From: Olivibacter jilunii
GTDB taxonomy: Bacteria > Bacteroidota > Bacteroidia > Sphingobacteriales > Sphingobacteriaceae
NCBI RefSeq assembly: GCF_900607235.1
Contig: NZ_LR027850.1
Coordinates: forward strand, 326,043 to 390,042
DNA: 64,000 nucleotides
Reading direction: 5' to 3'
Below are positions 33,260 to 61,140 of this stretch, piece by piece; position 1 is the first letter of the stretch, and each line of letters starts with the position of its first letter. The notes under the pieces were generated by a model. The model worked only from the letters and a program-made list of their open reading frames with translations. It was not told the origin of the DNA and did not search any database. The position numbers were made by a program, and so were the translations under genes.

Positions 33260-33300
33260 TGCAATATAGTTGCATATTTGTAGGAATGGGTTTATCTTTG
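33260..33300 (+). promoter_or_regulatory. Palindromic operator overlapping the promoter of the first uptake operon
   Basis: The 15-mer TGCAATATAGTTGCA (33260-33274) is a TGCAA-N5-TTGCA palindrome. Its TTG (33270-33272) doubles as the -33 element, 20 nt before a perfect -7 box TATCTTTG (33293-33300). A reverse-complement copy of the palindrome with the same -7 box lies at 54537-54576. A repressor bound here would block RNA polymerase. A dimeric metalloregulator (Fur superfamily or similar) is an inference. Confidence 0.7.
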
Positions 33301-33304
33301 ATAT

Positions 33305-33631
33305 GTGTTTGTTTTAAAGAATATCACGCATAAGAAAATTATTGCCCATATATTGCTGGCATTAGTGCTGATTGTTCATGTGGCAAAAGTTTTTCATGAA
33401 CATGCAGGCTGTTTGGCGAGCAGCGACAAACACGGTATCAAAATTTACCAACATCAGGAGGAGTGTAAGATCTGTACCTTTCACTTGCTGGGGAGCGGCG
33501 AGTTCTGTGAATTGCTTTTCACCTTTCTTGTACCTCCAGTAGCGGATGCATTCAATATATTGCCAGTAGATCTTCGCTATTTTAGATGTTGTGACGCCCT
33601 TTACCTACGCGGCCCCCCTAGCCGTTATTAA
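33305..33631 (+). CDS. Small CxxC membrane protein, DUF2946-like, first of haem-uptake operon
   Basis: This 108-residue protein has one N-terminal membrane segment (about 12-28) followed by HEH, a conserved ECKICTFHLLG block, a second hydrophobic stretch (about 66-82) and a C-terminal LRGPPS motif. The layout recalls DUF2946-type small proteins found beside TonB metal receptors in other phyla, but the similarity is by eye only. A clear paralogue is encoded at 54581-54919. The GTG start lies 4 nt after the -7 box, so the mRNA is probably leaderless or very short-leadered. The downstream TonB receptor starts 288 bp later. A role in metal or haem handling at the membrane is inferred from H/C residues and context. 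Confidence 0.7.
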   Translation: MFVLKNITHKKIIAHILLALVLIVHVAKVFHEHAGCLASSDKHGIKIYQHQEECKICTFHLLGSGEFCELLFTFLVPPVADAFNILPVDLRYFRCCDALYLRGPPSRY

Positions 33632-33919
33632 GCAATTTTTCATACATATTGATTAAACCATTCATCTAGGCATCGTTTTGACACCTTTGATTTACATAAA
33701 ATCAAATTAATAGAAGCCGGAGAAATAGCTGGCATACTTTCAATCGTCGGTCGCCGAGGTTTGGTAGGCCGAGGTGCGAATTATAATGGTTTGTAAGTGC
33801 TCGCTATGATCGATCGTTAAAGCAATTGCTTCCTATTCATGCCTTTAATTCGTTTTTAAATACACATAGTTGCATAATTATATCCGTCCGATATTTACGA
33901 CACATTATAGCTGATTTTC

Positions 33920-36247
33920 ATGAAGTATTCTGAATATTTTACAAACTGTTCCAAACGGTTTGCACAATTCTTATCCGTTGTTATTTTTTTTCTATTAGTT
34001 GTTTTTCATCTACCTGTATCTGCTCAAAATGCCAAACCTTCGGACCTGACCGGATTCGTGACCGATTCTACAAAAAAGCCAATCTCCAGTGTTACGGTCG
34101 AAATTCGCGGGAAAGGGACTGTAGCTTCTTCCAACAGCAAGGGCAACTTTTCTATCTCTTTGTCGCAGATCAAGTCCTTTACCTTACGGCATATCAACTA
34201 TCAATCTGTGGAAGTTGATGTCGATTCCATTTCCGCATCCTCTTATCATTGGGTTCTTCAACCCAAAGTCAATATGTTGGACGTTATTTCGGTCACGGCC
34301 TCTGCCAAGCCAATTGAGCTTAGAAAAATTGCATCCAGTGTTTCTGTTTTACAAAAGGGAGCCCCGGAACTTCGACAGATCCAAACGATAGACGAGGCAT
34401 TGGCCTATTTGCCAGGTGTTTCAGTCGACCGCTCTCGGGGTTTAACAACTACCGGAACACATACGAGCGTCATCATGCGTGGAACCGGATCGGCAAATAG
34501 AACCCTGATACTGAAAGATGGGGTGCCCATCAACGACGCCTATACGGGAGGAGTTTCCGAATGGAATAGCTTGGCAGGTAATAGCATTGAACGCATAGAA
34601 GTGGTAAGGGGACCGGGCTCTTCGATTTATGGTTCTAATTCCATGGGAGGTACCATCAATCTCGTTACGCAAAGCCCTTCGGATAAGCCTACCCTTGGTG
34701 CAGATTTTCGCTACGGTTCGATGAATACCTATCAGGCAAGTGTTAAGGCAGGCAAGCAGTTTTCCGATCGGTGGGGGGCAATAGTATTTGCAGAATACAA
34801 GAAAACGGATGGTTATGCCTATATGGCCGACAGCCTCTGGAAGAATTATTATGTAAAGCCGAGCATGAAACTGCTCAATGTGAATGCCAAAGTAGCTTAT
34901 CATTTCCCCTCTGCAGGAACCCTTACGGCCATAGCGGATTACAATCTGCAACAGCCTTTATCGGGTACTACCACCATTTACGATGATCGTAGTGTCGGGG
35001 GAAACTATCAGTTGCGTTACACCAATCCAGCAGCTGTATACGCTCCGGATGTACTTGTCTACTATAATGTGCAGGATCGTGAGTCGAACGCCATTAAATG
35101 GAATCAGGAAAGCAATGCCTTTGATGAGCGTTATTACGATTCACGAGTGCCATTGGACACCTACGGACTGATCGCCAAGGTACATCGTACCTGGGGAGCA
35201 AATGTGGTTACGGTGGGAGCGGACATCCGATTTACCGAAGTAGTATCCCGTAAATATTACTACGAACAAGGTATTCAGGATTTTACCGGCAGACAGGATT
35301 TCGTTTCTTTCTTCGTTAATGACGATTTGGATATTACAGATCGCCTCCATGCTAACATAGGACTAAGGTATGACCATTGGGCTAACCGAAACGGGAAATT
35401 CTTTGACAATATGTCTGGCAATGATATAGCCATCGCTTACGATAACGCTAGTTCTGACATCGTCAATCCCAAAGTGGGAATCAGTTACGATCTGCTGCAT
35501 AACCTGCGCCTAAGGGCGGTGTACGCTACCGGATTCCGCGCACCAAGTAGTTTCTATATGTACAATGCCGCCCCCTTGGGCTCGTCTTTCCGTTTGGGAA
35601 ACCCACGCTTGAAGCCCGAGCGGATGCGGTATTCCTATGATATTGGTGTGGATTTTCAACTATCGGATAAACTGGAGCTTTCCGGTACATTGTATACTTC
35701 CCAATACAGTGATTTTCTTGCGGCAGTGCTGATTGATGCCAATGAAGTTCCGGCTTACCTAGATGTTAAGGGCCTGCCGGTACGGCAATATATCAACATT
35801 GGAAAAGTGAATCTATGGGGAGCGGAAAGCTTTGCCCGTTACCGCTTAACTTCAGACTTTTCGGTACAGGCTAGCTACTTCTATAATTCATCGGAGATAA
35901 AACGGTATGAAACCAATCCGGAATACGAAGGAAATGACATGAGTGATAACCCGTCCCACAATGTGAGCGGGGCATTCATATTTGATCGCGTCCAACTGTT
36001 TCATTTGAGCCTGTGGGGCAGACATACGGGAACTTATTATGGTGATCTGGAAAACACGCCGGAAAAAACCATGCCTGCTGTTACGGTTTTCGACATCAAG
36101 TTCGGTAAGGCGATCGGACCGTTGACACTCAACGTCAATGTGACCAACCTGTTTGATAAACGCTATTACGGAAGTTATACCTCTCCAACAAGTTATTACT
36201 ATGCTCCGGGAAGGAGTGTCTTTGCCGGAATAACTTATCAATTGTAA
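33920..36247 (+). CDS. TonB-dependent receptor of haem/cobalamin type (HmuR-like)
   Basis: This 775-residue outer-membrane receptor has a signal peptide (to about residue 36, PVSAQN), a carboxypeptidase-regulatory-like domain (about 42-115), a plug (about 130-250) with ALAYLPGVSVDRSRG, IMRGTG and RIEVVRGPGSSIYGSNSMGG, and a 22-strand-type barrel ending in FAGITYQL. It imports a substrate with energy from TonB-ExbBD. The next three genes (ExbB-like, DUF2149, CobN-like) match the order of hmuR-associated loci, so haem or another tetrapyrrole is the favoured ligand. A degenerate half operator (ATAGTTGCAT) is seen near 33867. Confidence 0.88.
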   Translation: MKYSEYFTNCSKRFAQFLSVVIFFLLVVFHLPVSAQNAKPSDLTGFVTDSTKKPISSVTVEIRGKGTVASSNSKGNFSISLSQIKSFTLRHINYQSVEVDVDSISASSYHWVLQPKVNMLDVISVTASAKPIELRKIASSVSVLQKGAPELRQIQTIDEALAYLPGVSVDRSRGLTTTGTHTSVIMRGTGSANRTLILKDGVPINDAYTGGVSEWNSLAGNSIERIEVVRGPGSSIYGSNSMGGTINLVTQSPSDKPTLGADFRYGSMNTYQASVKAGKQFSDRWGAIVFAEYKKTDGYAYMADSLWKNYYVKPSMKLLNVNAKVAYHFPSAGTLTAIADYNLQQPLSGTTTIYDDRSVGGNYQLRYTNPAAVYAPDVLVYYNVQDRESNAIKWNQESNAFDERYYDSRVPLDTYGLIAKVHRTWGANVVTVGADIRFTEVVSRKYYYEQGIQDFTGRQDFVSFFVNDDLDITDRLHANIGLRYDHWANRNGKFFDNMSGNDIAIAYDNASSDIVNPKVGISYDLLHNLRLRAVYATGFRAPSSFYMYNAAPLGSSFRLGNPRLKPERMRYSYDIGVDFQLSDKLELSGTLYTSQYSDFLAAVLIDANEVPAYLDVKGLPVRQYINIGKVNLWGAESFARYRLTSDFSVQASYFYNSSEIKRYETNPEYEGNDMSDNPSHNVSGAFIFDRVQLFHLSLWGRHTGTYYGDLENTPEKTMPAVTVFDIKFGKAIGPLTLNVNVTNLFDKRYYGSYTSPTSYYYAPGRSVFAGITYQL

Positions 36248-36265
36248 AACAAAAAACTAAAAAAA

Positions 36266-36859
36266 ATGACCGAATTTATTGATCGTTTTCTCTTTCAGCT
36301 CACAGAGCTTCTGCATGCCCCGGTTTTATTGGCACTTTTTGCCATGGTAGTCTGGACATTGATCAGTATTGGGGCCTTTTTTCGCACCTGGTTGATGCGC
36401 GTACGAAAACCCAGGGAAGCTGTTCATACATTTTTCGCTCAGCACGAAGGCGAAATAACAGCTTTACTAACCGATAGCCCCTATGCTGATATACAGTTGA
36501 CCGAACTGGTTCGCTCTTGGGAAAAAAAGCAGAACAGCCGTTTGGATAACATTCGTTTTTTAATCAAAACGGGGCCATCCATCGGCTTGGTAGGTACGCT
36601 GATTCCTATGGGTCAGGCGCTGTCTTCCCTTTCCAGTGGCGACATGGCGGCCATGTCCGGTAACATGCTGACCGCCTTTACCTCTACCATTATCGGACTG
36701 GTCTGTGGAACGGTGGCCTACCTGATTAGCTTGAAATGGGAAAAATGGCTGCATGCAGATTTTCTTGCCTGCGAAGTAGAGGCGGAAACCCGTTTAAGGT
36801 TTGCCGGTTTAAAGCAAGCGGAAACCGATTCTACCCTCATTTACAATCAATCGCTTTAG
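36266..36859 (+). CDS. MotA/TolQ/ExbB-family proton channel protein
   Basis: The product has 197 residues and three membrane segments (about 14-36, 106-128 and 136-158). Segments 2 and 3 form the MotA/TolQ/ExbB channel domain: FLIKTGPSIGLVGTLIPMG and LTAFTSTIIGLVCGTVAYLI. The family uses proton flow to drive partner proteins. It starts 18 bp after the TonB receptor and ends 1 bp before the DUF2149 gene, which would play the ExbD-like role. In Porphyromonas and Bacteroides hmu loci a channel of this type accompanies the CobN-like chelatase, so the pair may energise that enzyme or the receptor. Confidence 0.88.
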   Translation: MTEFIDRFLFQLTELLHAPVLLALFAMVVWTLISIGAFFRTWLMRVRKPREAVHTFFAQHEGEITALLTDSPYADIQLTELVRSWEKKQNSRLDNIRFLIKTGPSIGLVGTLIPMGQALSSLSSGDMAAMSGNMLTAFTSTIIGLVCGTVAYLISLKWEKWLHADFLACEVEAETRLRFAGLKQAETDSTLIYNQSL

Positions 36860-36860
36860 C

Positions 36861-37205
36861 ATGAAATTACTAAGAGTACACCAGGGGCGCGAGGATCAAA
36901 CACCTCTCGAGGACCCCATAAGTGGCATTGCCAACCTTTTCGATATCAGTGTTGTGCTTATTGTCGCTATGATAGTTGCGTTGATGACGGCGCTCAACAT
37001 GCTGGAGTTGTTCGATCCCAATACGGAGGTAACCTTAACAAAGAAAAATGCACAGGGTCAGATGGAAATCATCTCCAAGAAGGGAAGGGAAATCAAAGTT
37101 AAGAAATTATCGCAAGAAGAAGCTGCCGGCCATGGCGAACGCTTAGGTACGGCCTATCAATTGGAAGATGGACAGATTATTTATGTGCCGGAAAATGTTC
37201 AGTAA
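36861..37205 (+). CDS. DUF2149 protein (ExbD-like partner)
   Basis: The 114-residue protein has one membrane segment at about 28-48 (FDISVVLIVAMIVALMTALN) preceded by an N-terminal cytoplasmic stretch with DPISGIANLFD, typical of DUF2149, and a C-terminal periplasmic domain ending QLEDGQIIYVPE. Topology and neighbours mirror ExbD/TolR. It overlaps the CobN-like gene by 11 bp (start 37195) or 38 bp (start 37168), so the genes are translationally coupled. Confidence 0.85.
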   Translation: MKLLRVHQGREDQTPLEDPISGIANLFDISVVLIVAMIVALMTALNMLELFDPNTEVTLTKKNAQGQMEIISKKGREIKVKKLSQEEAAGHGERLGTAYQLEDGQIIYVPENVQ

Positions 37206-40200
37206 AACAGTATTTATTCGTATCGTATTATGGAGTCAGCTTGTTCTGTGCTTTGCGTTGGAGGCTTTTTGTGCGCCTGCACCGAAAAAGATAGTGATAC
37301 TGGTTTCCGAAAATTATAGTAAACCTGTTGCCGAGGCAATTGCCCAACTGCACAAGCTTCCTGGCTTCACCGATGCTTATCTGGTATCAACAGCCATTGA
37401 CGGAAATGCCGTAGCGGATGTGGGAGGTGCAGATCTAGCCGTCTGCTATGTGCATACCCCGGTCGTACTACAGCGTTTTTCTGCGGAGCTACAGCGCATC
37501 GTTAAACGTGGCGGACATGTATATGCGCTTGGTAACACGCCGGAAGCGGATAGTTATGGCAAGCAGGGCATTCGCTTCGACCCGGAAGTGGCTGCTTATT
37601 TCGAGCATCCCAGCCCGGATAATCTGGCCAATATGATACTAATGCTGTTGAATAGACATTTGGAATCGACCTATCCGGTAAAGCCGGTTGTCCCCTTTCT
37701 GGAAAATGGCATCGTTTCTCTTCGGAGTGGGGAGGTATACGCAAGCTTTGAACGATATGCCCAAGCCGAAAGACTGGGGGAGCGCCCGTTGGTAGGTTTG
37801 TATATGTTCCGTTACGAAGCAGTTACCCGTCAGTGGGAGTATATGAAGTCTTATGCGGATGCCTTAGATACGGCTGGTTTCGATGTGATGCCCTTTTATG
37901 GCCATCCACTTGATCAGGCAATCGAAGATCATTGTTTGGATGCCGACGGAGGCTCTCGTTTATCGGCCCTGTTGAATTTTTCTTCTTTGCCGGGAGCGTC
38001 CAACGAACGGCTTCAGGCGGCATTTTCCCGTATGGGTGTACCGGTAATCAATGCCATCACAATCAGTGACGATACAGCAGCTTGGCATGCCTCCTCCTTG
38101 GGGATACCACTTGCGGCGCGTGCCTTATCGCTTGCCCGTCAGGAACTAAGCGGTCAGATACAGCCGATAATAGCGGCAAGCACCGAATCTGTAGCATCCG
38201 CCGGTGCGGCTGGATACCGCGTCAAATACGCGCCTGAAAGCCGTGTACGAAGATTGGTGGGGCGTGTAAAAGCGTGGTCAAGATTGCAAAGCCTGCCCAA
38301 CCGGGATAAAAAAATTGCGCTGATTTATTATAACGGGCATCCGGGTAAAAATAATATTGGTGCCAGTTACCTGAATGTGCTGCCCAAGAGCCTTACGGCC
38401 ATTTTAAAACGTATGGGTGAAGCGAAATATGATCTTGGTGGTCAAACTCCTGATCCCATTACCGTATTTGATGACGTCATGAACGGAGGCCGTAATATCG
38501 GTACTTGGGCACCGGCGGAACTGGATCGGTTAGTGCAGGAAACGCATCCCGTACTGGTTCCGGTGGAGACCTATAAAAAATGGTTCGGACAGTTGCATCC
38601 TGCTTTCCAAAAGCAGGTAATAAAAAAGTGGGGTGAACCGGAAGATTCAAAGATCATGACCTGGCGTGATCCGGAAGGAAAGATTTATTTTGTTTTGCCT
38701 CGAATCGCCTACGGCAATATTAACCTGATGCCCCAACCGGCCAGGGGTTGGGACGAAGACGCTCAGGCCTTGTACCACGATGTTTCGCTTCCTCCACATC
38801 ACCAATACGTTGCCTTTTATCTGTACCTACAAAAAGGTATGCCCGCCGATGCGGTCATCCATCTGGGAACACATGGAACACAGGAATGGCTTTCAGGACG
38901 TGAAGTGGGGTTTGATGATGACGATGCGCCAGAAGCACTGATGGGTAACCTGGTTAACATTTATCCCTACATTATGGACAATGTAGGGGAAGGAACACAG
39001 GCCAAAAGGCGTGGAATGGCCGTGATTATTGATCATTTAACGCCGCCCTTTGATCAGGCCACCTTAAGACCCGAGTTGCGTGAACTTGCGGGGACCATCA
39101 ACGATTATGATGTGGCTTCCGGCAAAAGTGAAGCACTCGCTGCTGTTCACCTGCGCACAATCAATCGGCTGGCCAGGGAGGCAAATATAGGGAAGGATCT
39201 AGGTATTGATGGCGACATTAAAGCAGAAGATGTACAAAGACTGGAACATTACCTGCAGGAAATCCAGGAGACGCTTAGCCCAATGGGAATGCATACCTTT
39301 GGGCAATCACCGGATTCGGTGATGGCGATAAAAACGGCAGAAGCTATCGTTGGGCGGATGCAGGGGATACCCAAGGATTCACTTGCCGTGCTACTGATGG
39401 ATGTTTACCAGCGCATTATGATCAGTGGCCAACGAGAGCTGGATGCACTGATGACAGCTCTTAATGGAAAGTATGTGGAAGCGGGTTCAGGTAATGATCC
39501 TATTCGAAATCCTTCGGCACTTCCTACAGGAAAGAATTTTTATTCCTTTGACCCCGACCGTATTCCCACCACAGACACTTATCGAGAAGGAGAGAAGCTG
39601 GCTAATCAGTTGATCGCTGATTACCGTGGCAGACACGATGGCCAGTATCCGGATAAGGTGGGATTTAATCTATGGTCGGTGGAAACCATCCGCCATGAAG
39701 GTATTATGGAATCTCAGATATTGAGTTTATTGGGGATAAAGCCTACTTATGATGGCTTTGGGCGGTTGAAAGGAGTAGAAGCAATTGCAGATACTGCGCT
39801 TGGGCGACCGCGTATCGATGTGGTCATCACGCCCTCCGGCTTGTATCGCGACCTATTTCCCAATCTAATGCTGTTATTAGATAAAGCGGTTTCTTTGGCC
39901 TATCAGCAAGATGGTGCTAACTATTTGCGGGAACATATTGACCAAAGTGTGGACAAGCTGTTGTCTTCCGGACTCAAAGACACTACCCTCGCCCGTCAGC
40001 TGGCTAGTATACGCCTGTTCAGCACGAAGAGTGGAAGTTACGGAAACGGCTTGAACGATGTGGTTCAGGCCTCCGATAAGTGGAAAAAAGACCAGAAGGT
40101 TGGGGCTGTTTACTTTAACCGGATGGGACATTTATATGGGCAGGGTCTTTGGGGAAACATACCGGATGGGGAACTCCCGGAAACAGCAAAGGACCTAGCG

Positions 40201-41205
40201 GTATCGCTTTTTAAAAGTGCCTTATCCGGGACGAAGGCAGTTGTTCATAGCCGCTCTACCAATGTTTACGGCGCGTTGGATAACGACGATTTTTTTCAGG
40301 CATTGGGTGGGATGGCGATGGCGGTACGCCATGTTGACGGGGCGTCGCCCGATGTGATGATTACCAACCTGGCCGACCCGAGAAATACCCGCCAGGAATC
40401 GCTAAACAAATTTATCGGAAGGGAGATGAATACCCGTTACCTTAATCCCAAATGGATTGAAAAAATGCTAGATGAAGGATACGCTGGAGCACGGATGATC
40501 GGCCAGGTAGCAGATAATATGTGGGGATGGCAGGTCACAACGCCGGAAGCGATCGATGCACAGAAATGGGAGGATTGGATGGATACTTATGTCAATGATC
40601 AGTACAATCTGGATGTTAAAGGGCGGTTTGCAAAAGCCGGTAACACTTATGCTTACCAGACGATGCTGGCCCGCATGCTGGAAGTGGTCAGGAAAAACTA
40701 TTGGAAACCCGACGAACAGCGTTTGCAGCAGCTGATGACCGAATACCTGAAAACTGCCGAAGAAACGGGACTTTCCTGCGCTGACAATGTATGTGGAAAT
40801 GGAGCCTTGACAGATTTCCTAAAGCAAAGGGCTAATAACACAGGAAATAAGGAGCTAGTAAGCAATCTGATAGAACAGTTGGGTAAAATCCATACAAGTT
40901 CATCCAGCTCTGTAAAGGGTAATGCTGCGAAAGCGGTGGCAGAACCTCGAAAACCTGTTAAAGGTCGGGCAAGATCAGGGCGGTGGTCGAAAGATCCCGG
41001 AACGACTGGGCAGAATGCTCCCGTAGAAAAAGAAGCAGGGAAGTCCACTCCCGTCAAGGGCTATAAAATGGAAGAAACCAGTTGGCAAGCGAACGATAAG
41101 AATCAGAAAGCACAACACGTTTCATCAGCATCTTATGATGGTTTGTTGATAAGCGTCATTGCCTTGTTGATTGGCTTCGGATTTTGGTTTGGCAAAAGGT
41201 ACTAA
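37195..41205 (+). CDS. Membrane-anchored CobN/HmuS-like chelatase
   Basis: From ATG 37195 (which gives the best signal peptide, MFSKTVFIRIVLWSQLVLCF to about residue 30) the protein has 1336 residues; 37168 and 37183 are alternatives. The body is a CobN/magnesium-chelatase-H domain with AVIHLGTHGTQEWLSGREVG, YPYIMDNVGEGTQAKRRGMA and VIIDHLTPPFDQ, plus later FNLWSVETIRHEGIMESQIL and NLADPRNTRQESL. A basic, low-complexity linker and one C-terminal membrane helix (YDGLLISVIALLIGFGFWFG) end it. A secreted, membrane-tethered CobN is not a cobalamin biosynthesis enzyme but matches HmuS, implicated in removing iron from haem. The ExbB-like/DUF2149 genes directly upstream support this. Confidence 0.85.
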   Translation: MFSKTVFIRIVLWSQLVLCFALEAFCAPAPKKIVILVSENYSKPVAEAIAQLHKLPGFTDAYLVSTAIDGNAVADVGGADLAVCYVHTPVVLQRFSAELQRIVKRGGHVYALGNTPEADSYGKQGIRFDPEVAAYFEHPSPDNLANMILMLLNRHLESTYPVKPVVPFLENGIVSLRSGEVYASFERYAQAERLGERPLVGLYMFRYEAVTRQWEYMKSYADALDTAGFDVMPFYGHPLDQAIEDHCLDADGGSRLSALLNFSSLPGASNERLQAAFSRMGVPVINAITISDDTAAWHASSLGIPLAARALSLARQELSGQIQPIIAASTESVASAGAAGYRVKYAPESRVRRLVGRVKAWSRLQSLPNRDKKIALIYYNGHPGKNNIGASYLNVLPKSLTAILKRMGEAKYDLGGQTPDPITVFDDVMNGGRNIGTWAPAELDRLVQETHPVLVPVETYKKWFGQLHPAFQKQVIKKWGEPEDSKIMTWRDPEGKIYFVLPRIAYGNINLMPQPARGWDEDAQALYHDVSLPPHHQYVAFYLYLQKGMPADAVIHLGTHGTQEWLSGREVGFDDDDAPEALMGNLVNIYPYIMDNVGEGTQAKRRGMAVIIDHLTPPFDQATLRPELRELAGTINDYDVASGKSEALAAVHLRTINRLAREANIGKDLGIDGDIKAEDVQRLEHYLQEIQETLSPMGMHTFGQSPDSVMAIKTAEAIVGRMQGIPKDSLAVLLMDVYQRIMISGQRELDALMTALNGKYVEAGSGNDPIRNPSALPTGKNFYSFDPDRIPTTDTYREGEKLANQLIADYRGRHDGQYPDKVGFNLWSVETIRHEGIMESQILSLLGIKPTYDGFGRLKGVEAIADTALGRPRIDVVITPSGLYRDLFPNLMLLLDKAVSLAYQQDGANYLREHIDQSVDKLLSSGLKDTTLARQLASIRLFSTKSGSYGNGLNDVVQASDKWKKDQKVGAVYFNRMGHLYGQGLWGNIPDGELPETAKDLAVSLFKSALSGTKAVVHSRSTNVYGALDNDDFFQALGGMAMAVRHVDGASPDVMITNLADPRNTRQESLNKFIGREMNTRYLNPKWIEKMLDEGYAGARMIGQVADNMWGWQVTTPEAIDAQKWEDWMDTYVNDQYNLDVKGRFAKAGNTYAYQTMLARMLEVVRKNYWKPDEQRLQQLMTEYLKTAEETGLSCADNVCGNGALTDFLKQRANNTGNKELVSNLIEQLGKIHTSSSSSVKGNAAKAVAEPRKPVKGRARSGRWSKDPGTTGQNAPVEKEAGKSTPVKGYKMEETSWQANDKNQKAQHVSSASYDGLLISVIALLIGFGFWFGKRY

Positions 41206-41227
41206 TCGATATTTTCTTTTATCCACC

Positions 41228-41671
41228 CTATTGCTCCTCATGAAATTCAAAGCGTCCGGTTCCTTCTTCTATATTTATTCGATAAACGATCAAGCTATTC
41301 CGAAGCTCAGGACTTATCGCGTGAGAAGGGTCCCGTCCCGGATCATTGGTGTTTGGCATAATACGTAAAATGAGGCCTTGCATGGCCTGTTGACGCTCCA
41401 TGTCTTTCAGTTCTTCAAAGGTTCCCCAAAGAATAGCACTTTTCCACTTGAACATGCTTTCAACTTCATCAACCTGAAAACAGACGCGTGGATTTTTCCG
41501 TAGCATTTCTATTTTTTTACCTTCACCGGAATGAGCATATATCGCATTATTTTGGTATACATAGTTGATTGGCACTATATAAGTTTCGCCGTTTGCGTGG
41601 CATCCAAGCCGGCCGATGAATTGGCTTTTCAATAAATCGACTATTTCTTTCTTATTTAATTCTCCAAGCAT
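41228..41671 (-). CDS. Pyridoxamine 5'-phosphate oxidase family (flavin-binding) protein
   Basis: The 147-residue split-barrel protein shows MLGELNKKEIVDLLKSQFIG, RLGCHANGETYIVPINYVYQ, AIYAHSGEGKKIEMLRKNP and VCFQVDEV, the pattern of the PPOX/Nim (nitroimidazole-reductase-like) group that binds FMN. It probably acts as a cytoplasmic flavoenzyme reducing small molecules. It is convergent with the CobN-like gene at 22 bp and is not obviously part of that operon. Confidence 0.85.
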   Translation of the reverse strand: MLGELNKKEIVDLLKSQFIGRLGCHANGETYIVPINYVYQNNAIYAHSGEGKKIEMLRKNPRVCFQVDEVESMFKWKSAILWGTFEELKDMERQQAMQGLILRIMPNTNDPGRDPSHAISPELRNSLIVYRINIEEGTGRFEFHEEQ

Positions 41672-47665: not shown

Positions 47666-47862
47666 TTTCTTTTTGTTTATCTGTGTGCGTGCCCTTTATC
47701 TATAATACATAAAGAAAAGAGAATCTATATTTGTTTGCTTCGGATCGATGCGAATAACGAGGTAGATAGTCCGAAGGATATCGAAGTGATTAAATATACT
47801 CATTTTTAATGAGATATACCGTGTTTTTCCAGGCAAAATGAATTTGGTTCTTCGCCAAGCAG

Positions 47863-47894
47863 TTGCCGATTTTTTATATGTTTAATATACTTTG
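47863..47894 (+). promoter_or_regulatory. Probable promoter of the cold-shock gene
   Basis: TTG (47863-47865) and TATACTTTG (47886-47894) are 20 nt apart and resemble the Bacteroidota consensus with one extra base in the -7 box. A start near 47900 would leave a ~65-nt AT-rich 5' leader before ATG 47967, a length commonly associated with cold-shock mRNA regulation. Confidence 0.4.
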
Positions 47895-47966
47895 TTTCGT
47901 ATAAAGTTATATAACAATAAATTATATGTATCTTTATACCAGTTATTTATTTTTAATTTGTTTTAA

Positions 47967-48158
47967 ATGCAAGAAGGCGTAGTAAAATTTTTTAACGAAA
48001 CCAAAGGTTTCGGTTTCATCACCCCTACAGACGGTGGACGTGAAATTTTTGTTCATTCATCGGGTCTTAAAGATCGCATACGGGAGAATGATGATGTATC
48101 TTTTGATGTAGAACAAGGCCAGAAAGGTCTTAATGCAGTAAATGTTAAATTGATCTAA
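47967..48158 (+). CDS. Cold-shock domain protein (CspA family)
   Basis: This 63-residue single cold-shock domain starts [18 protein letters not shown] and has RNP1 (KGFGFI) and RNP2 (IFVHSS). It is slightly shorter than E. coli CspA (70 residues), normal for Bacteroidota. It binds single-stranded RNA or DNA as an RNA chaperone. The gene stands alone, with an intrinsic terminator 20 bp after the stop. Confidence 0.93.
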
Positions 48159-48178
48159 TTAATTTTCGCATATATTGT

Positions 48179-48216
48179 GAAAGCCGTCTCGAATTTTTCG
48201 GGACGGCTTTTTTATA
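48179..48216 (+). terminator. Intrinsic terminator of the cold-shock gene
   Basis: AAAGCCGTC and GACGGCTTT form a 9-bp stem, extended by CG pairs around an AT-rich loop, followed by a run of T. It is a classical Rho-independent terminator. Confidence 0.85.
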
Positions 48217-48413
48217 TGTTGTTGAATGTTGCTCTATGTGATCTTTTTACCTCTGTCCTTTCAGTATTGTCAACTTATCTATTCATGCCCTCGCTTAATT
48301 GCATTTCTCTTTCTTTATACCGAAAAGAACAATACCTTTATTCTTATTTAGCCTACAAAGGCGCTTCTAAAATTGAGGAATTATCACCTTCAGCAAGTCT
48401 ATTCGCTGAATAA

Positions 48414-48455
48414 GGTCGGTCGTCCGCTACCATTTCGCTAGCGGATTTGCCGACC
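48414..48455. other. Two-tier 13-bp stem-loop of unknown role
   Basis: GGTCGG (48414-48419) pairs with CCGACC (48450-48455), and inside it TCCGCTA (48423-48429) pairs with TAGCGGA (48439-48445), with small internal loops (3 and 4 nt). No T-run or adjacent gene end explains it. It may be a structured RNA or a remnant recombination site; no second copy was found. Confidence 0.45.
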
Positions 48456-48530
48456 AAATCTGCCAGCTTGAAACCAAGCACTGTGCTAGCAACCGCTGTT
48501 ATTCGATCCATTCACAAAGCTGTAAAAAAC

Positions 48531-48555
48531 AAAACCCCTGTTTCAAAGGGGTTTT
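48531..48555 (-). terminator. Terminator of tiny gene A
   Basis: AAAACCCCT (48531-48539) pairs with AGGGGTTTT (48547-48555). On the minus strand a T-rich run follows (complement of 48521-48530), so it terminates the small minus-strand gene at 48623-48745. Confidence 0.75.
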
Positions 48556-48622
48556 GCTATTACTAAAACAACTTGTAAAACTATAACTTTTAATGTATAC
48601 AACTACTTTAACAACAGGGCAA

Positions 48623-48745
48623 TCATGTTAATGTTTGTAAATCTTCAATAAATGTTTGGTAAAGTGCTTTCTTCAAACTGTTTTTTTCAAGCTCGATAAG
48701 TCTTTGGTACTTCTTGATCAGTAAGGATAATTGATGTTTATTCAT
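48623..48745 (-). CDS. Tiny 40-residue protein A (MNKHQL family)
   Basis: This short frame reads MNKHQLSLLIKKYQRLIELE and continues with NSLKKALYQTFIEDLQTLT before TGA. It is a single amphipathic, K/L/E-rich helix-like peptide with no signal or cysteine. A second copy with the same start (MNKHQL, LIKKY, LE, SL, LY) is on the same strand at 51285-51431. Between stop and terminator both copies keep a conserved ~60-nt 3' region (ACAACTTGTAAA, AACTTTTA). Conservation of protein and 3' sequence supports a real gene, either a microprotein or an RNA with a coding part. The function is unknown. Confidence 0.55.
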   Translation of the reverse strand: MNKHQLSLLIKKYQRLIELEKNSLKKALYQTFIEDLQTLT

Positions 48746-48937
48746 TTGGATGTGTTTGGATGCCACGAAGCTAATGCCTTAAGATGAAAAATGCATAACC
48801 TTTCTGTAAATTTTTTAGATACATTCTAAATAATATTCAATACCCTTTGGAATAAGCAACGCTATTTGTGCAAATTCCGGGCAGGAATTGGGTAGTGCAA
48901 ACTAACCGAACATTCTTAGATTTGTTTCCACAAAACA

Positions 48938-49008
48938 GGTCGGATGGCTGAGTGGTTAGGCAGAGCTCCGCAAGAGATCTCACAGTGGTTCGAATCCACT
49001 TCCGACCT
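48938..49008 (+). tRNA. tRNA-Cys (GCA), divergent anticodon arm
   Basis: The 71-nt cloverleaf has a perfect acceptor stem (GGTCGGA/TCCGACC), a 3-bp D stem (GCT/GGC) with a GAGTGGTTA loop, anticodon stem GAGCT/AGATC with loop CCGCAAG, T arm AGTGG-TTCGAAT-CCACT, and discriminator T73. Anticodon GCA and U73 identify cysteine. No CCA is encoded. Two oddities are seen: position 33, almost always T, is C, and pair 29-41 is a G/A mismatch. It may therefore be a weakly functional or decaying copy. A partial, diverged copy of its 3' half lies at 50444-50478. Confidence 0.72.
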
Positions 49009-49368
49009 CAGTAGCACATAGATGTAGTTTTTATTTGTAAAAGTAGCATCTCGACACAAACTTTTTCTCTTGATCAACGTTTGATATCATTGGTTAGAAT
49101 TGCCAGTTGTTCTTAAGCATAACAATACGACGAACGTTGAAATTGTTAAAACTACATATTGATCTGTAGACTAATAGTGCATGTTGCCCTACCTTTTGGA
49201 ATCACCTTAATAAATAACGAAGATAGGACAACTTTGTGAACAATCGCTTTTTGGGCTTGACGTGCAATGCATTAAAGCTTGATTTATAATCTGTTAAACA
49301 ATAAACTCGTATCAAAAAACGTTACAATATATTTGTAGCACCCGCGAACAGATTTATTTATTTCTCTT
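49009..49368. other. 360-bp intergenic region after tRNA-Cys
   Basis: AT-rich sequence between tRNA-Cys and the PAS kinase. No ORF, clear terminator or integrase remnant was found. The kinase promoter must lie here but no consensus pair stands out. Confidence 0.35.
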
Positions 49369-50430
49369 ATGACTATATTGCCGCCCATCACCTCATTAAC
49401 TGAAAGTTCTAAGTTGCTCTTCTTCTCGTATGATTGCAAAACAAACAGGTTTACTTATGTTAATCCTGCTTTCGAATCTTTTTTTGGACGATCGAGCGAC
49501 AACTTAGATCTTGCTTTTCTGTTTGAAAAAGTTCATTACGAAGATAGGCAATATGTAAAAGAGAAATTGCTCGATTGCTTAAACGGTCAGGTAGTTCACA
49601 GTCTGGAATGTCGAATTGTTTTGCATAAAAAAAAATATTGGTTCCGAATTGAACCGCATTTAGTACGTGATGACGACAATCAACTGCTGGTAGGACACGC
49701 AGAAGACATCAGCCTTTATAAAGAACATGATGAAAACCTAAATAGACACAACGATAAAAAAAATGCTATTTTGGGTATCATGTCGCATGATCTCGCCGGT
49801 CCCATTGGACTTATAACAAACATCACGGTGCTTTTGAATCGGGAAGTAGATCCCGATAATGTTAAAGTCAAAAAATTTCTATCCATAATTGACAGGGCAA
49901 GTAGGGAATGCTTACATCTGATACGCGATTTTTTGGATACGGAATTTTTGGAGACCGCGGAAATCAGATTACTGAAAAGGAGAGCAGACGTGGTGCAGTT
50001 AGTTCAGCGTATGATAGAGGAGTATGCCGGAATGCAAGTGGAGTTGAATCGGTCAATATCCTTTGAGTGCAATAGGAAAACCATTTACGCAGACATTGAT
50101 GAAGCGAAGCTGCCACAGGTAATAAATAATCTCATTTCCAATGCGCTTAAATTTACGAGGGCGGACGACCGCATTACAATCTCACTTGATGAAAGCGATA
50201 CAACTATTTACATAACGGTTGCCGATACCGGAATTGGCATCCCGAAAGAATATCATGCGACTTTATTTGATAAATTCAGCCCCGCAAGGCGTAGAGGCCT
50301 TGGTGGTGAGAGCTCCACAGGCTTGGGCATGCATATCATTAAAACGATTATCGAATGGCATGGAGGTACTATAACCTTCAAAAGTGAAGAAGGCCAAGGC
50401 ACTACTTTTTATATACAACTACCGAAATAG
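49369..50430 (+). CDS. Soluble PAS-domain sensor histidine kinase
   Basis: The protein has 353 residues and no membrane segment. A PAS domain (about 10-120; FTYVNPAFESFFGRSSDNL, then EDISLYKEH) is followed by HisKA with H140 (IMSHDLAGPIGLI) and HATPase_c (about 235-350) with LISNALKFTRADDR, DTGIGIPKEY and TGLGMHIIKTIIEWHGG. It should autophosphorylate in response to a cytoplasmic cue. No regulator is adjacent. It lies between tRNA-Cys and a decayed tRNA-like fragment that begins 13 bp after its stop. Confidence 0.9.
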   Translation: MTILPPITSLTESSKLLFFSYDCKTNRFTYVNPAFESFFGRSSDNLDLAFLFEKVHYEDRQYVKEKLLDCLNGQVVHSLECRIVLHKKKYWFRIEPHLVRDDDNQLLVGHAEDISLYKEHDENLNRHNDKKNAILGIMSHDLAGPIGLITNITVLLNREVDPDNVKVKKFLSIIDRASRECLHLIRDFLDTEFLETAEIRLLKRRADVVQLVQRMIEEYAGMQVELNRSISFECNRKTIYADIDEAKLPQVINNLISNALKFTRADDRITISLDESDTTIYITVADTGIGIPKEYHATLFDKFSPARRRGLGGESSTGLGMHIIKTIIEWHGGTITFKSEEGQGTTFYIQLPK

Positions 50431-50443
50431 ATGCTAGTAATGC

Positions 50444-50478
50444 GCTGCAGAAGAGATCTTGGCATGGTTTGAATCTAC
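50444..50478 (+). pseudogene. Decayed tRNA-Cys 3'-half fragment
   Basis: Aligned without gaps to 48965-48999 of the tRNA-Cys gene, 25 of 35 bases match, including AAGAGATCT and TGGTT-GAATC of the anticodon and T arms. The acceptor 3' end is lost. With the tRNA upstream it brackets the PAS kinase gene. Confidence 0.5.
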
Positions 50479-50517
50479 AAATTACTTAACCTATACACTA
50501 CTTTCAGTTTGGCTATT

Positions 50518-50703
50518 CTAATTTTTCCGTACTTTCTTTTCTCTTAAGACTTCACTTTTTCCAGTGGTGTCTTCATCAGAGTCCGGGTCAAATTGTGGTT
50601 CGTCCTTATCGATCTGTTTTGCTTTTTCTTTCTCAAACTTTTCCTTCTGCCGCGGAGTAGCTGCCGGTTCGGTAGCTACTTCTTTCTTTTTATCCGATTT
50701 CAT
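50518..50703 (-). CDS. Small highly charged hypothetical protein
   Basis: ATG 50703 gives 61 residues, almost all charged or proline: MKSDKKKEVATEPAATPRQK, a basic helix, then an acidic segment DEPQFDPDSDED and a basic tail. It is predicted to be largely disordered. No signal or membrane segment. Similar short K/E/D-rich proteins are common in Sphingobacteriaceae, but no function is known. The open frame extends 30 codons upstream without similar composition, hence the chosen start. Confidence 0.5.
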   Translation of the reverse strand: MKSDKKKEVATEPAATPRQKEKFEKEKAKQIDKDEPQFDPDSDEDTTGKSEVLREKKVRKN

Positions 50704-50927
50704 ATGCCTATTAAGAATATAAAAATAAATGTTCGTTGGATTATTCCTTGCTTCAAACGACAGTAACGGATTATTGGTCCCAAAGCTCCTCATCAGGGGC
50801 TTTATTCCTTACGCTTTAAAGTGGGCGAAGGTATTTATTTACTAAAAACAAGGTAGAAGAGAATTTCTATTGTATTAAACAAAAAATAAGGTTCTTTTTG
50901 TTCAGCAAGGCTAAAAAACTTCTCCTG

Positions 50928-51116
50928 CTACCTGAAGAAAAAATAGGCTATTGCCAGCGCAATTACGGCAACAATAATCGACCAGTGGATCGTAAAGCCA
51001 ACTTTTTTGTCATCCTTTTCGTCAAGAGCCACTTTCGGTAATCCCGGATTATCTTCATGCTTGGCATAATTTGTTTCCATTGTCGTTTTTGAACTATTCG
51101 TTTTATCCTGTTCCAT
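50928..51116 (-). CDS. Small single-pass membrane protein
   Basis: The 62-residue protein has a polar N-terminal region (1-42) rich in K, D, E and N, and one C-terminal membrane segment (about 44-61, IHWSIIVAVIALAIAYFFF) ending in R, a tail-anchored-like layout. No family is recognised. Its ATG is clear and it sits among other small minus-strand genes (50518-50703 and 51285-51431). Confidence 0.55.
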   Translation of the reverse strand: MEQDKTNSSKTTMETNYAKHEDNPGLPKVALDEKDDKKVGFTIHWSIIVAVIALAIAYFFFR

Positions 51117-51181
51117 CTGTTATATGTCTGATACCTATAAATAACGATTTAAACTTCTTAGTGTTTGCGGAGGCTAAAAAA

Positions 51182-51207
51182 GCAAAGCCCCGCCATAAGG
51201 GCTCTGC
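51182..51207 (-). terminator. Terminator of tiny gene B
   Basis: On the minus strand GCAGAGCCC pairs with GGGCTTTGC (one G-T pair), followed by a run of six to seven T (complement of 51175-51181). Confidence 0.7.
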
Positions 51208-51284
51208 TCTTACTATGAACAACTTGTAAACTAAAACTTTTATGTAAACAACTATTGCAACAACAACGCAATCTCAATAAGGTT

Positions 51285-51431
51285 TTAGGATTTGCTGCTA
51301 AATCTCATATTCACAATAGTGTTTGCGGATCCTCTATAGCTGTGGTAAAGTACTATTTCCAAACTGTCTCTTTCAAGTTTCAAACGTCTTTTATATTTTT
51401 TAATAAGTATGAATAATTGGTGTTTATTCAT
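51285..51431 (-). CDS. Tiny 48-residue protein B (MNKHQL family)
   Basis: This frame starts MNKHQLFILIKKYKRRLKLE and continues RDSLEIVLYHSYRGS before diverging and ending at TAA. The first ~33 residues align with tiny protein A (48623-48745), including MNKHQL, LIKKY, LE and SL-x3-LY. The C-terminal ~15 residues are unrelated, perhaps because of an insertion or frameshift in one copy. The 3' region down to the terminator is again similar to that of copy A. Function unknown. Confidence 0.5.
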   Translation of the reverse strand: MNKHQLFILIKKYKRRLKLERDSLEIVLYHSYRGSANTIVNMRFSSKS

Positions 51432-51557
51432 TTAGATATGTTTAGATGCGCTAAGTTGATACGTAGAGATTAAAGATCCATTTGCGATCGGTAGTCAAAC
51501 TATAACAAGGTGTTCTTGTTAATGTTATATAGTCAGTTGAAAATAATATCACATATT

Positions 51558-52031
51558 ATGGAAAAACATCATCCCATAGTTGCAGGTACCGTCGGAACAA
51601 CGTTGATGACACTATTTAGCTATATGGTAGCGGCGTCTAAGGGCGAGAAATTTGAGGAACCGGCTCTTTTGGCCGAAATGGTCGAAAAATTAACAAAAGA
51701 AAAAGAACTCGCTCGTATAAGTGGCTGGACAATGCATTTCGCCATGGGCTGCAGTATGGCCTTCGTTTTCCAGCAAATATGGAAACAGACAAAAACCAAT
51801 CCCGGTATAAAGCAAGGTTTAATTGCCGGTGTACTTAGTGGTTTGTCGGGAATATTAATTTGGAAAGTGGTGTTCAAGTTTCATCCAAATCCGCCTCCGA
51901 TTCCGTTTAACCGGTATTATGGACATCTGCTATTGGCTCATGTAGTTTTCAGTATGGGCGTGGCATTAACCAGTAGAAATTATAAAAACGAAAAGATACA
52001 ACAATCTATCGGAAATGAGGAATCTAAATAA
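51558..52031 (+). CDS. Hypothetical multi-pass membrane protein
   Basis: From ATG 51558 (preferred over 51510) the product has 157 residues with about four hydrophobic segments (about 7-25, 56-72, 84-102, 124-140). Notable parts are HPIVAGTVGTTLMTLFSYMV, WTMHFAMGCSMAFVFQQIW, KQGLIAGVLSGLSGILIWK and YYGHLLLAHVVFSMGVAL with conserved H/Y/G residues. It resembles small conserved Bacteroidota membrane proteins (DUF1440/DUF6789-like layout), but the family is uncertain. It is monocistronic. Confidence 0.65.
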   Translation: MEKHHPIVAGTVGTTLMTLFSYMVAASKGEKFEEPALLAEMVEKLTKEKELARISGWTMHFAMGCSMAFVFQQIWKQTKTNPGIKQGLIAGVLSGLSGILIWKVVFKFHPNPPPIPFNRYYGHLLLAHVVFSMGVALTSRNYKNEKIQQSIGNEESK

Positions 52032-52142
52032 TTAACTGTTGAGGTTGATCTCGTATCGAAGGGAGCCGAATATCAGTTCATTTTCGGATAAGTCGATTTG
52101 TTTGCCAAACTATACCAAATTTAATTCGAAGGGAACTAATTC

Positions 52143-52475
52143 ATGCTAGAGGATAATAAAATCTGTCAGTTGCTATCAATCAGCAGAATATACCACGAGC
52201 CAAAGGTTATGGCATATCCGAGAGGACGCGAAATACTCGAGCGGTTCCCTGATGCAGAGCGGATTCAAGTGGCCTCCCACCAAGCTATACCAGAGCTTTT
52301 TGGTTTCGAAGGAGCGGTAGAAGACTGGTTATGGAATAAAAAGAATGTGCTGATACTCGGCACCAAAAAAGCACTGCAGGCGCGTCCCAATGCCCGAAGT
52401 TCAAACTGGGTAGCACCATCGCATTCCAATGGTTGTTCTTACTGCTATGTGCCCCGGCAGAAAGGGTATACGGCC
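52143..52475 (+). pseudogene. Truncated spore-photoproduct-lyase-like radical SAM gene
   Basis: The N-terminal ~109 residues match the SPL-family radical SAM proteins of Bacteroidota: YHEPKVMAYPRGREILERFP, GTKKALQARPNARSSNWVAP, SHSNGC and CYVPRQKGY. The [4Fe-4S] motif C-x3-C-x2-C is collapsed to C98-S-Y-C101, a loss of about four residues, and after Y109 the similarity stops abruptly at about 52470. A lipoprotein gene on the other strand begins there. The open frame runs on to 52649 but only as the antisense of that gene. The radical SAM enzyme cannot work. Confidence 0.75.
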
Positions 52476-52706
52476 TTACGGTTTACTTGCATCCTTTTCG
52501 GCAACACTGTCGGTTTGCATCGGATACATTTTTTCACTGAGCGTGGAGTCCTGCTCCTTTGGTGCGTCTATGGTATCGGCATCAAACTGTTCCTGGACAT
52601 CGTCGGGCGATTGACTATCGCATCCACATGCGTAAATCATTACCGTTGAAGAGATAATCAGCAATCCACCAATCAGTTTTTTTTTAAAATTTTTGTGATT
52701 CATCAT
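52476..52706 (-). CDS. Small lipoprotein
   Basis: The 76-residue protein (75 from the second ATG) has a lipoprotein signal (KKKLIGGLLIISSTVMIYAC, lipid-modified cysteine near residue 27) and a short acidic, disordered tail with DSQSPDDVQEQFDADTIDAP. It is anchored at a membrane; no function is known. Its stop codon lies at the breakpoint of the truncated SPL-like gene. Confidence 0.6.
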   Translation of the reverse strand: MMNHKNFKKKLIGGLLIISSTVMIYACGCDSQSPDDVQEQFDADTIDAPKEQDSTLSEKMYPMQTDSVAEKDASKP

Positions 52707-53173
52707 TGTTTTTCGGCTTAACTTGGCTACAAGTACATGTTAAGTTTGCCTTCTATTAAATCGTCAAGCGTTTTTCTAGTATCTCGTTCCTTCAATTCCC
52801 ATGTTAGAAATCAAAATCATTTATAGCCATTATCAACAAGAAAACCCCAAAAGCGATTGAAATGTTTGAGACCGGCGGCTATTAGTTACCTATAACGCGA
52901 TAGGCAATAAACAGGAGCATGTAACAAATGTGTGATGGGTATGTTTTGGCACTTCTATTGCTTCAATATACGCAATACTTTAACACCCTATGAAAAACGT
53001 AAAGGCTCTTGATCAAGGATCGGGAGCTTTTTCCTTTTTTTCTGCCAACAAATTATGACTTAGGGCATCATGATAAACGATAAATTATCCTCTACAAACA
53101 TGATGGCTTGTGAATTTGTTAGAAAGTCTGTATTGCTTGCGTTATCACTGCAAGTTATAGATATAAATTAAAT
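52707..53173. other. 467-bp region with an orphan terminator
   Basis: No ORF of note. The only clear element is a plus-strand terminator at 53001-53040 that has no intact gene upstream on that strand; it may once have ended the now truncated SPL-like gene. Confidence 0.4.
53001..53040 (+). terminator. Orphan intrinsic terminator (copy 1 of a repeated type)
   Basis: AAAGGCTCTTGATC (53001-53014) pairs with GATCGGGAGCTTTT (53018-53031) around AAG, followed by a T-rich run. The element and its upstream flank (CACC-TAT-GAAAA-GTAAAGGCTCT) resemble the terminator at 54332-54362. Confidence 0.75.
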
Positions 53174-53428
53174 ATGATTGTAACGCTTACTCCAGACATC
53201 GTGCAACAGCTTCACGCAAAAGGCATAACCTTTCTTTATGCTCCGCTCCAATTTAGTCTTGACGATCCAATTTGGGTACCTATGGTTGTCGAATTTTTTG
53301 ACTGTGATTGGATAGATCCGCAAGCAGATGCTGTATTGTTGCTAAAAGCAGCGCTAGAGATACCCTTCGAGCAGTTTCTAAATCACCGCGTAATGCTGCC
53401 CAATAATTGGGATATGCATGTAGTTTAA
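53174..53428 (+). CDS. Hypothetical small protein
   Basis: The 84-residue product is not recognised. It has no signal peptide; composition is rich in hydrophobic and acidic residues with WVPMVVEFFDCDWIDPQADA and the ending LNHRVMLPNNWDMHVV. The start MIVTLTPDIVQQLHAKGITF suggests a cytoplasmic alpha/beta fold. Single gene between an orphan terminator and the carbonic anhydrase gene. Confidence 0.5.
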   Translation: MIVTLTPDIVQQLHAKGITFLYAPLQFSLDDPIWVPMVVEFFDCDWIDPQADAVLLLKAALEIPFEQFLNHRVMLPNNWDMHVV

Positions 53429-53607
53429 CAACTGTGGAATCAGTCAGACCAATCGGTCGGCTTCGATCTCATTTAACAGCCTATGCCCTTGCTAATAATG
53501 CTATAACCATATACGAATTATTTATTGTGAAAAGACGGCAGTGAATTGCTTTCAACTTTTTAACGTTTTTCATAGATTGCACAACATAAAACATCTAAAA
53601 CATCAAA

Positions 53608-54255
53608 ATGAGAACGCTAACAAAAGAAGATCAACAGGCAATAACACCTCAAAAGGCCTTAAACCTATTGGAAGAGGGCAACAAACGGTTTGTTAATAAT
53701 TTAAAAATCAATCGAAACCTTTTGCAACAAGCAAATGAGACCTCAGACGGCCAACATCCCTTCGCTGTAATTCTAAGTTGTATCGATAGTCGCACATCCG
53801 CCGAATTGATTTTCGACCAAGGCTTGGGCGATGTTTTCAGTATCCGGGTTGCCGGTAATATTGTTAACGAAGACGTTTTAGGAAGCATGGAATTTGGTTG
53901 CAAAGTGGCGGGTGCAAAAATAATTGTCGTGTTAGGCCATACCAAATGCGGTGCAATTAAAGGCGCATGCGATCATGTGGAAATGGGAAACCTAACCGCT
54001 TTACTCTCGAAAATTAGACCCGCTGTTGATGAAGAATTGACCATAAAGGAGAACCGTAGTTCCAAAAACAGCGAATTTGTTGAAAGGGTCTCTGCTATAA
54101 ATGTTAACCGTTCGGTCAAATCGATAATAGAACGCAGTCCAATTCTCAAAGAAATGATAGAAAGTGGCGAAATCGGAATAGTCGGCGGCATTCACGATAT
54201 CACAACAGGCGTAGTTACCTTTTACCCGGACACCTCAATCTTCGGTAAAAATTGA
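53608..54255 (+). CDS. Beta-class carbonic anhydrase
   Basis: This 215-residue cytoplasmic enzyme interconverts CO2 and bicarbonate. Zinc ligands are visible: C in ILSCIDSRT (with the catalytic D-x-R dyad), and H-x2-C in VVLGHTKCGAIKGACD. The N-terminal ALNLLEEGNKRFVNN and DVFSIRVAGNIVNEDVLGSM are typical. The length fits the family. The gene is single, ended by a strong terminator at 54332-54362, and precedes the second uptake operon without apparent link. Confidence 0.92.
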   Translation: MRTLTKEDQQAITPQKALNLLEEGNKRFVNNLKINRNLLQQANETSDGQHPFAVILSCIDSRTSAELIFDQGLGDVFSIRVAGNIVNEDVLGSMEFGCKVAGAKIIVVLGHTKCGAIKGACDHVEMGNLTALLSKIRPAVDEELTIKENRSSKNSEFVERVSAINVNRSVKSIIERSPILKEMIESGEIGIVGGIHDITTGVVTFYPDTSIFGKN

Positions 54256-54331
54256 TCACGGTCCGGTTTTACCAACCAGAGGAGATGATATGGTAGCCGG
54301 CCATTTGATCATTAACACCTATAAGAAAAGT

Positions 54332-54362
54332 AAAGGCTCTCGATCCCTGATCGAGAGCTTTT
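54332..54362 (+). terminator. Intrinsic terminator of the carbonic anhydrase gene
   Basis: AAAGGCTCTCGATC (54332-54345) pairs with GATCGAGAGCTTTT (54349-54362) around CCT; 14-bp stem with one G-T pair, followed by further T. Same design as the element at 53001. Confidence 0.85.
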
Positions 54363-54504
54363 TCATTTAAGTTTCGGCTGTAGAAAAGAGGCAACGGATC
54401 AGATTAGCCTTATAGGATAGCTGTTTATTTTGTCGCGATACACGAAATAGTTTTTTTGGTAAACCCACTTTTGACGACGGTGAAAAAGACATTAAAAATA
54501 AAAA

Positions 54505-54576
54505 AAAGCATTATATAGATATGCTTTGAATAAAATTGCAACTATATTGCATTTTATGGAAAATGGTTTATCTTTG
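54505..54576 (+). promoter_or_regulatory. Palindromic operator and promoter of the second uptake operon
   Basis: TGCAACTATATTGCA (54537-54551) is the exact reverse complement of the 15-mer at 33260-33274. Its TTG (54547-54549) is 19 nt before the -7 box TATCTTTG (54569-54576), identical to that at 33293-33300. An additional inverted repeat, AAAGCAT/ATGCTTT (54505-54511 and 54521-54527), lies just upstream and might be a second binding site. Confidence 0.7.
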
Positions 54577-61109: not shown

Positions 61110-61140
61110 AATAATGCGATCAGCTAAGGAGAAACAAAAT

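Follow-up and report, generated by a model that had tools for sequence, protein, structure and literature searches.

Two putative metal-uptake operons lie on the forward strand of a 64,000-nucleotide (nt) stretch of the Olivibacter jilunii genome (contig NZ_LR027850.1, positions 326,043 to 390,042; this whole stretch is called the window, and its first nucleotide is position 1), and each is headed by the same 15-bp palindrome. Operon 1 encodes a small, N-terminally hydrophobic protein with an HEH...CKICxFH motif and no Pfam family (33305-33631), a TonB-dependent receptor (33920-36247), a MotA/TolQ/ExbB-type protein (36266-36859), a DUF2149 protein (36861-37205) and a CobN-like protein with a hydrophobic stretch at its C-terminus (37168-41205), the last being 81% identical to its counterpart in Olivibacter domesticus DSM 18733. 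Operon 2 encodes a small HEH/CxxC protein (54581-54919) that is a paralogue of the operon 1 copy (37% identity), an ABC transporter ATPase (55082-55783), a TonB-dependent receptor of the siderophore-receptor type (55796-58288; TIGR01783 above its cut-off), two ABC-2/DUF3526 permeases (58303-59751 and 59754-61109) and an outer-membrane beta-barrel (OMP_b-brl_3) receptor-like protein (61099-63552). The boundaries of both operons are predicted ones. An earlier reading of the window (the original prediction) had called both uptake operons, in agreement with the TonB-dependent receptor that each encodes. On the same strand, about 280 bp separate the second palindrome from the end of a carbonic anhydrase gene upstream of it (53608-54255); carbonic anhydrases are a family of zinc enzymes.

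Read directly from the sequence, operator 1 is TGCAATATAGTTGCA, a 7-1-7 palindrome (33260-33274), and operator 2 is its exact reverse complement, TGCAACTATATTGCA (54537-54551); no strand is assigned to either. Each contains a -33-like TTG on the forward strand (33270-33272 and 54547-54549), followed after 20 nt in operon 1 and 19 nt in operon 2 by an identical -7 box, TATCTTTG (33293-33300 and 54569-54576, forward strand). The palindrome pair, the overlap with the -33 element and both spacings are as originally described. The Bacteroidota promoter form given in PMC7366714 has TTTG near -33 and TAnnTTTG at -7; the window promoters keep only the TTG core of the former (GTTG and ATTG) and otherwise fit. 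Both small genes have a possible GTG start 4 nt after the -7 box (with an alternative ATG 18 nt downstream of the GTG in operon 2), which suggests that their mRNAs may be leaderless or nearly so.

The two leaders align with each other from the promoter through the whole small gene, and seem to share a single ancestral promoter and small gene. The conserved intervening and following bases that had been cited in support of a shared promoter are indeed present; however, TGTGTTTG is the start of both paralogous small genes, so that duplication accounts for this shared segment and for some of the similarity between the leaders. When the operators are aligned on the same strand, their five central bases differ (TATAG versus CTATA), with arms and symmetry kept.

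No exact TGCAAN5TTGCA other than operators 1 and 2 is found in the window. The promoter pattern TTG-N19..21-TAnnTTTG occurs at four sites on both strands together, two of which carry the palindrome, and the combined module of palindrome and promoter was seen in 0/300 simulated first-order Markov windows. With up to two mismatches TGCAAN5TTGCA is at chance level in the window (44 found, 45 expected). Thus, the significance of the pair rests on exactness and on position at promoters.

A refined motif, TGCAAYWWWRTTGCA, was derived from the 24 exact sites that stand before ZigA-like genes; a few of these sites deviate from W in the centre. It has four exact copies in the 6.7-Mb genome, all intergenic and at promoters, distributed over three intergenic regions: operators 1 and 2, and a pair on contig C5. 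In all four the palindrome covers the -33 TTG. The C5 pair lies between a ZigA-type COG0523 GTPase gene and an operon encoding MerC, ABC ATPase, FtsX-type permease and DUF3299-like proteins. In each of the two divergent promoters there, the TTG falls within a palindrome and lies 20 nt before the -7 sequence, which is TACATTTG in one and TTATTTTG, a single base away from TAnnTTTG, in the other. For the GTPase, the ZigA zinc-metallochaperone is the best NCBIfam model, with 539 bits, which is below its cut-off of 600.

The looser TGCAAN5TTGCA, the consensus first proposed, matches exactly at 12 places genome-wide against 6 for a reversed control: 6 inside open reading frames (ORFs), the 4 intergenic sites of the refined motif, and 2 intergenic places with another centre, one of them near a contig end. 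Copies outside promoters therefore count against the loose N5 form and not against the refined one, whose four copies are all intergenic. At up to one mismatch the genome has 15 places that match TGCAAYWWWRTTGCA and 13 that match its reversed control, and so the class beyond the four exact copies is background. Ten of the 11 one-mismatch places are in ORFs. The other is intergenic, TGCAATATAGCTGCA, 21 bp before a small CxICDY gene, with a promoter recognised by eye as TTG-N20-TACTTTTG. The CxICDY gene is followed by one for a TonB receptor and by two that encode small, His-containing, lipoprotein-like proteins without a Pfam family; this operon (L170:6095-10320, equal to C5:287094-291319) is a probable further regulon member with a fifth operator. 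A different operon of small CxxC protein and TonB receptor in the genome (L170:3292-6027, equal to C5:284291-287026) lacks the palindrome, which shows that the small protein can occur without the operator. The regulon of two operons that was first envisaged is therefore too small. Searching the genome for palindrome and -7 box at one fixed spacing with up to three mismatches gave 85 matches against 44 and 42 in controls, about a twofold excess. Eleven weak matches of this kind (two with one, seven with two and two with three mismatches) were inspected and not counted as members; all were intergenic according to a simple gene caller, and no zinc gene was recognised by eye behind any of them.

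Conservation was examined gene-first, a design that avoids the bias of starting from pattern matches. In 151 family genomes, with O. jilunii counted, 31 ZigA/COG0523 loci were found; 30 of them were used, each with 400 bp upstream. The palindrome is present at 28/30 loci with up to one mismatch and at 20/30 exactly; 59 permuted control palindromes gave no exact match and a mean of 0.31 loci (maximum 3) at up to one mismatch. Operon 1 orthologues were taken to be 10 of the 15 fetched relatives with DUF2149 loci. Treating all 15 as orthologues was rejected, as five (L050-L053 and L060) are of a distant CobN type or, in the case of L051, lack CobN in the stretch; the site is found in 0/4 of the distant CobN/DUF2149 loci tested. 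Among the ten orthologues, the automated count is 8 with the site (controls: mean 0.05), and 9 with L062, whose exact site was missed through a mis-anchored gene start. Six carry a pair of palindromes at a distance of 39 bp, of which the second covers the apparent -7 region. For operon 2, 20 of 53 other listed matches were fetched, of which 18 were usable (L100 and L106 were dropped, as the script found no ABC gene). The site is present in 11/18 with up to one mismatch (controls: mean 0.44, maximum 3). Seven of these 11 sites read TGTAACTTTGTTGCA, which itself contains a -7 box, and several orthologues have TAACTTTG inside the palindrome. At up to two mismatches the operon 2 test loses force (17/18; controls: mean 5.98, maximum 13).

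In pattern scans, palindrome plus -7 box occurs in 106/301 family genomes against 4 with the reversed pattern, and in 30/296 phylum genomes against 1. A Zur, MerC, COG0523 or related gene was found by BLAST in 11 of 30 fetched family loci, and BLAST or Pfam identified a Fur-family, ZnuA, ZIP, MerC, COG0523 or small CxxC gene in 14 of 29 phylum loci, with sites adjoining ZnuA (L155, L156) and ZIP (L161) genes. By eye, 6/30 family sites precede a flavoprotein. Over family and phylum, the palindrome was seen by eye before a thioredoxin-reductase-like flavoprotein at L019, L022, L024, L027, L035, L039, L139, L144, L151 and L152; that of L139 is Pyr_redox_2 by Pfam, and a Zur-like gene stands beside it in L024, L139 and L151.

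Two FUR-domain proteins are encoded in the genome, both outside the window: Fur (C6:159603-159962) and a Zur-like protein of 151 aa (C6:269130-269582). The latter matches PF01475 with 44 bits (cut-off 23.1). The NCBI Zur equivalog NF008646 is still its best-ranked model, missing the cut-off, and thus the protein is named Zur-like on context and not on NF008646. Two CxxC pairs (C103/C106 and C139/C142) are invariant in 11/11 aligned rows, and C85, C89, H92 and H94 are present in the ten Zur rows and absent from the genome's Fur. These four residues and the CxxC cysteines are presumably zinc ligands. Zur-like matches (E <= 1e-8) are found in 243/301 family genomes, and the presence of the site tracks the protein: 101/243 genomes with a Zur-like match have it, against 5/58 without (Fisher p 5e-7; lists compared by hand). 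In L030, L038, L041, L046 and L106 a site has an orthologous Zur gene nearby; in L038 the gene is directly divergent, and in the other four it is about 1-2 kb away. Less similar Zur-like genes (32-41% identical) accompany sites in L024 and L104, and in the phylum loci L139, L147, L151, L154, L157, L161, L162 and L164. None of the 30 family loci contains a gene whose best match is the genome's Fur; in the phylum, a Fur-family gene of L155 and one of L158 match it at 24-27%.

The sites thus stand at promoters, are conserved before zinc-type genes and are linked to Zur-like genes in relatives. On these comparative grounds, the palindrome is very probably the operator of a zinc-responsive Fur-family repressor (Zur), most likely the C6:269130-269582 protein, acting over several metal-uptake operons. 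Binding by this protein, zinc as co-repressor and steric repression would together give an ordinary mechanism. With zinc bound, the Zur-like dimer would sit on TGCAAYWWWRTTGCA, cover the -33 TTG and exclude RNA polymerase; when zinc is scarce, Zur would leave the operator and the target operons would be expressed together. The targets would be operon 1 (small protein, TonB receptor, ExbB, DUF2149, CobN-like protein), operon 2 (small protein, ABC/DUF3526 transporter, TonB receptor), the ZigA-type GTPase unit and the MerC/ABC/FtsX/DUF3299 operon. The original prediction had guessed at a Fur/Zur-like metalloregulator, a dimer at -33 coordinating the two window operons. The comparative evidence favours such a repressor as the best-supported candidate, with neighbouring genes that point to zinc and not to iron or haem.

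Several observations weigh against this interpretation. The Zur-like protein reaches 44 bits with NF008646, for which the cut-off is 167, and its best match among solved structures is a Fur (1.5e-9), followed by Zur 4mtd (1.1e-6). Autoregulation was considered and set aside, as the 1.5-kb flanks fetched around the O. jilunii zur contain no site with up to one mismatch; among the 20 closest zur loci (own included), 15 lack a site at that threshold and none has an exact one. Operon 1 of Olivibacter domesticus (L057), the nearest named relative, has no operator, with the operon retained (TonB receptor 87% identical) behind what appears by eye to be a plain promoter, TTG-N20-TATGTTTG. The exact module is absent from 195/301 family genomes, and some of the family matches, most of them from genus g16, have TTGCATA...TCTAAGTTTG in common and could represent another promoter class. 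Sites are flagged inside ORFs by the simple caller in 9/30 family and 12/29 phylum loci, several of these flags being doubtful where the caller stretched a gene start over the palindrome; 3/11 operon 2 orthologue sites are flagged likewise. The centres at L155-L158 (znuA in L155 and L156, Fur-family genes in L157 and L158) misfit YWWWR. All four loci are of family f16, and the site there is TGCAAGNNNCTTGCA or TGCAAACTACTTGCA, which may be an operator variant particular to that lineage. Finally, the operator core is that of the nickel regulator Nur.

This last point leads to the chief rival, in which a Nur-like protein of the Fur family senses nickel or cobalt and controls operons for the uptake of these metals. 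The Streptomyces Nur box is given as tTGCaa-N5-ttGCAA (PMC3919588), with the same TGCAA-N5-TTGCA core and spacing as here. The original prediction had been aware of no Fur box that the consensus matches; a published Fur-family box does have this core in common with it. The conserved last A of the Nur box fits operator 2 (reverse strand) and not operator 1, where A...T stand outside. Nur 3eyy (9e-7) and Zur 4mtd match the C6 regulator about equally, and CobN-like and MerC proteins are not necessarily zinc proteins. Nevertheless, a nickel or cobalt regulon appears improbable. Streptomyces Nur is nickel-dependent and known from sodF/sodN, whereas the genes linked here are of zinc type: the most regular partner is the ZigA-type chaperone, and ZnuA and ZIP transporter genes adjoin sites in other Bacteroidota. 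No nickel enzyme or transporter was noticed among the examined neighbours, for which no dedicated search was made.

Comparison with the Zur regulon of Pseudomonas aeruginosa bears on the same choice. There, according to PMC4542158, PA1922-PA1925 (TonB, CobN, ExbD) and PA4063-PA4066 (ABC/lipoprotein-release type) are Zur-controlled, have Zur sites and are up in zinc depletion; PA4063-PA4066 have since been assigned to pyochelin-cobalt export (PMC13083405), which is in keeping with the Nur-like alternative. By gene content, the O. jilunii set resembles that regulon, as described in PMC4542158 and PMC10393844, both in an operon of TonB receptor, CobN-like and ExbD-type proteins and in one of ABC ATPase, lipoprotein-release-type permease and small periplasmic proteins. 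It differs in its Bacteroidota promoters, in the added small HEH/CxxC gene and in the DUF3526 ABC transporter operon, which is not named for P. aeruginosa in the relevant passages of those two sources. The operators also differ, the P. aeruginosa Zur consensus being GWWAYWNNNTWHCR (PMC10393844). According to PMC6103462, Zur boxes often overlap -35, may be 7-1-7 and sometimes number two per promoter, as with the palindromes here; the E. coli Zur box sequence given there differs from the present one, and the string "bacteroid" does not occur in its main text. Genes of COG0523 downstream of Zur sites are described in PMC2770081, and here too the partner found most regularly is a COG0523 gene, of ZigA type; in the main text of that source "bacteroid" and "flavobacter" occur 0 times and "cytophaga" once, about UreG. 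No Bacteroidota Zur operator was found among the matches listed or the passages found in the open literature.

It is very unlikely that the palindromes are operators of the iron regulator Fur (C6:159603-159962), with the operons serving iron or haem uptake. The TonB receptors are of haem and siderophore-like type and a Fur is present, but the recognisable neighbours of the sites are zinc-type genes, the site follows the Zur-like protein across genomes, and it is absent from the four distant CobN/DUF2149 loci tested and from the operon of small CxxC protein and TonB receptor at C5:284291-287026. The iron/haem reading was set aside for lack of support. Equally little probability attaches to a reading in which the palindrome is no repressor site but serves an alternative sigma factor, as an activating or an extended -33 element. 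The covering of the -33 TTG in all four exact sites would agree with this; however, the second palindrome of six operon 1 orthologues lies over the apparent -7 region, and TAACTTTG lies within the palindrome in several operon 2 orthologues. The position of the palindrome relative to the promoter thus shifts with its symmetry kept, which counts against a sigma-factor element. That the likeness was merely inherited with a duplicated promoter and small gene, without operator function, is hardly credible: leaders and small genes do align through the coding region, but the same arms recur at the C5 pair, where no small gene of this kind is present, and before unrelated zinc-type genes in relatives, the central bases of the window sites differ with arms and symmetry intact, and the controlled ZigA test contradicts it.

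A Zur operator is thus the preferred reading: a conserved operator appears real, and it is most likely that of Zur. It is also likely that TGCAAYWWWRTTGCA and close variants are a Zur-bound zinc operator across much of Bacteroidota, with the same core as the Streptomyces nickel operator, marking zinc-acquisition modules to which little or no function has been assigned so far. If true, the modules so marked would comprise CobN-like + DUF2149 + ExbB + TonB and DUF3526 ABC transporter + TonB, as well as the small HEH/CxxC membrane protein encoded ahead of the receptors. What was an unexplained palindrome pair would in this way become a predicted zinc-starvation regulon, with regulator and operator, of a Bacteroidota genome. 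The operator would permit candidate zinc-uptake genes to be listed in many Bacteroidota, and would assign DUF3526, DUF2149, CobN-like and small CxxC proteins to metal supply.

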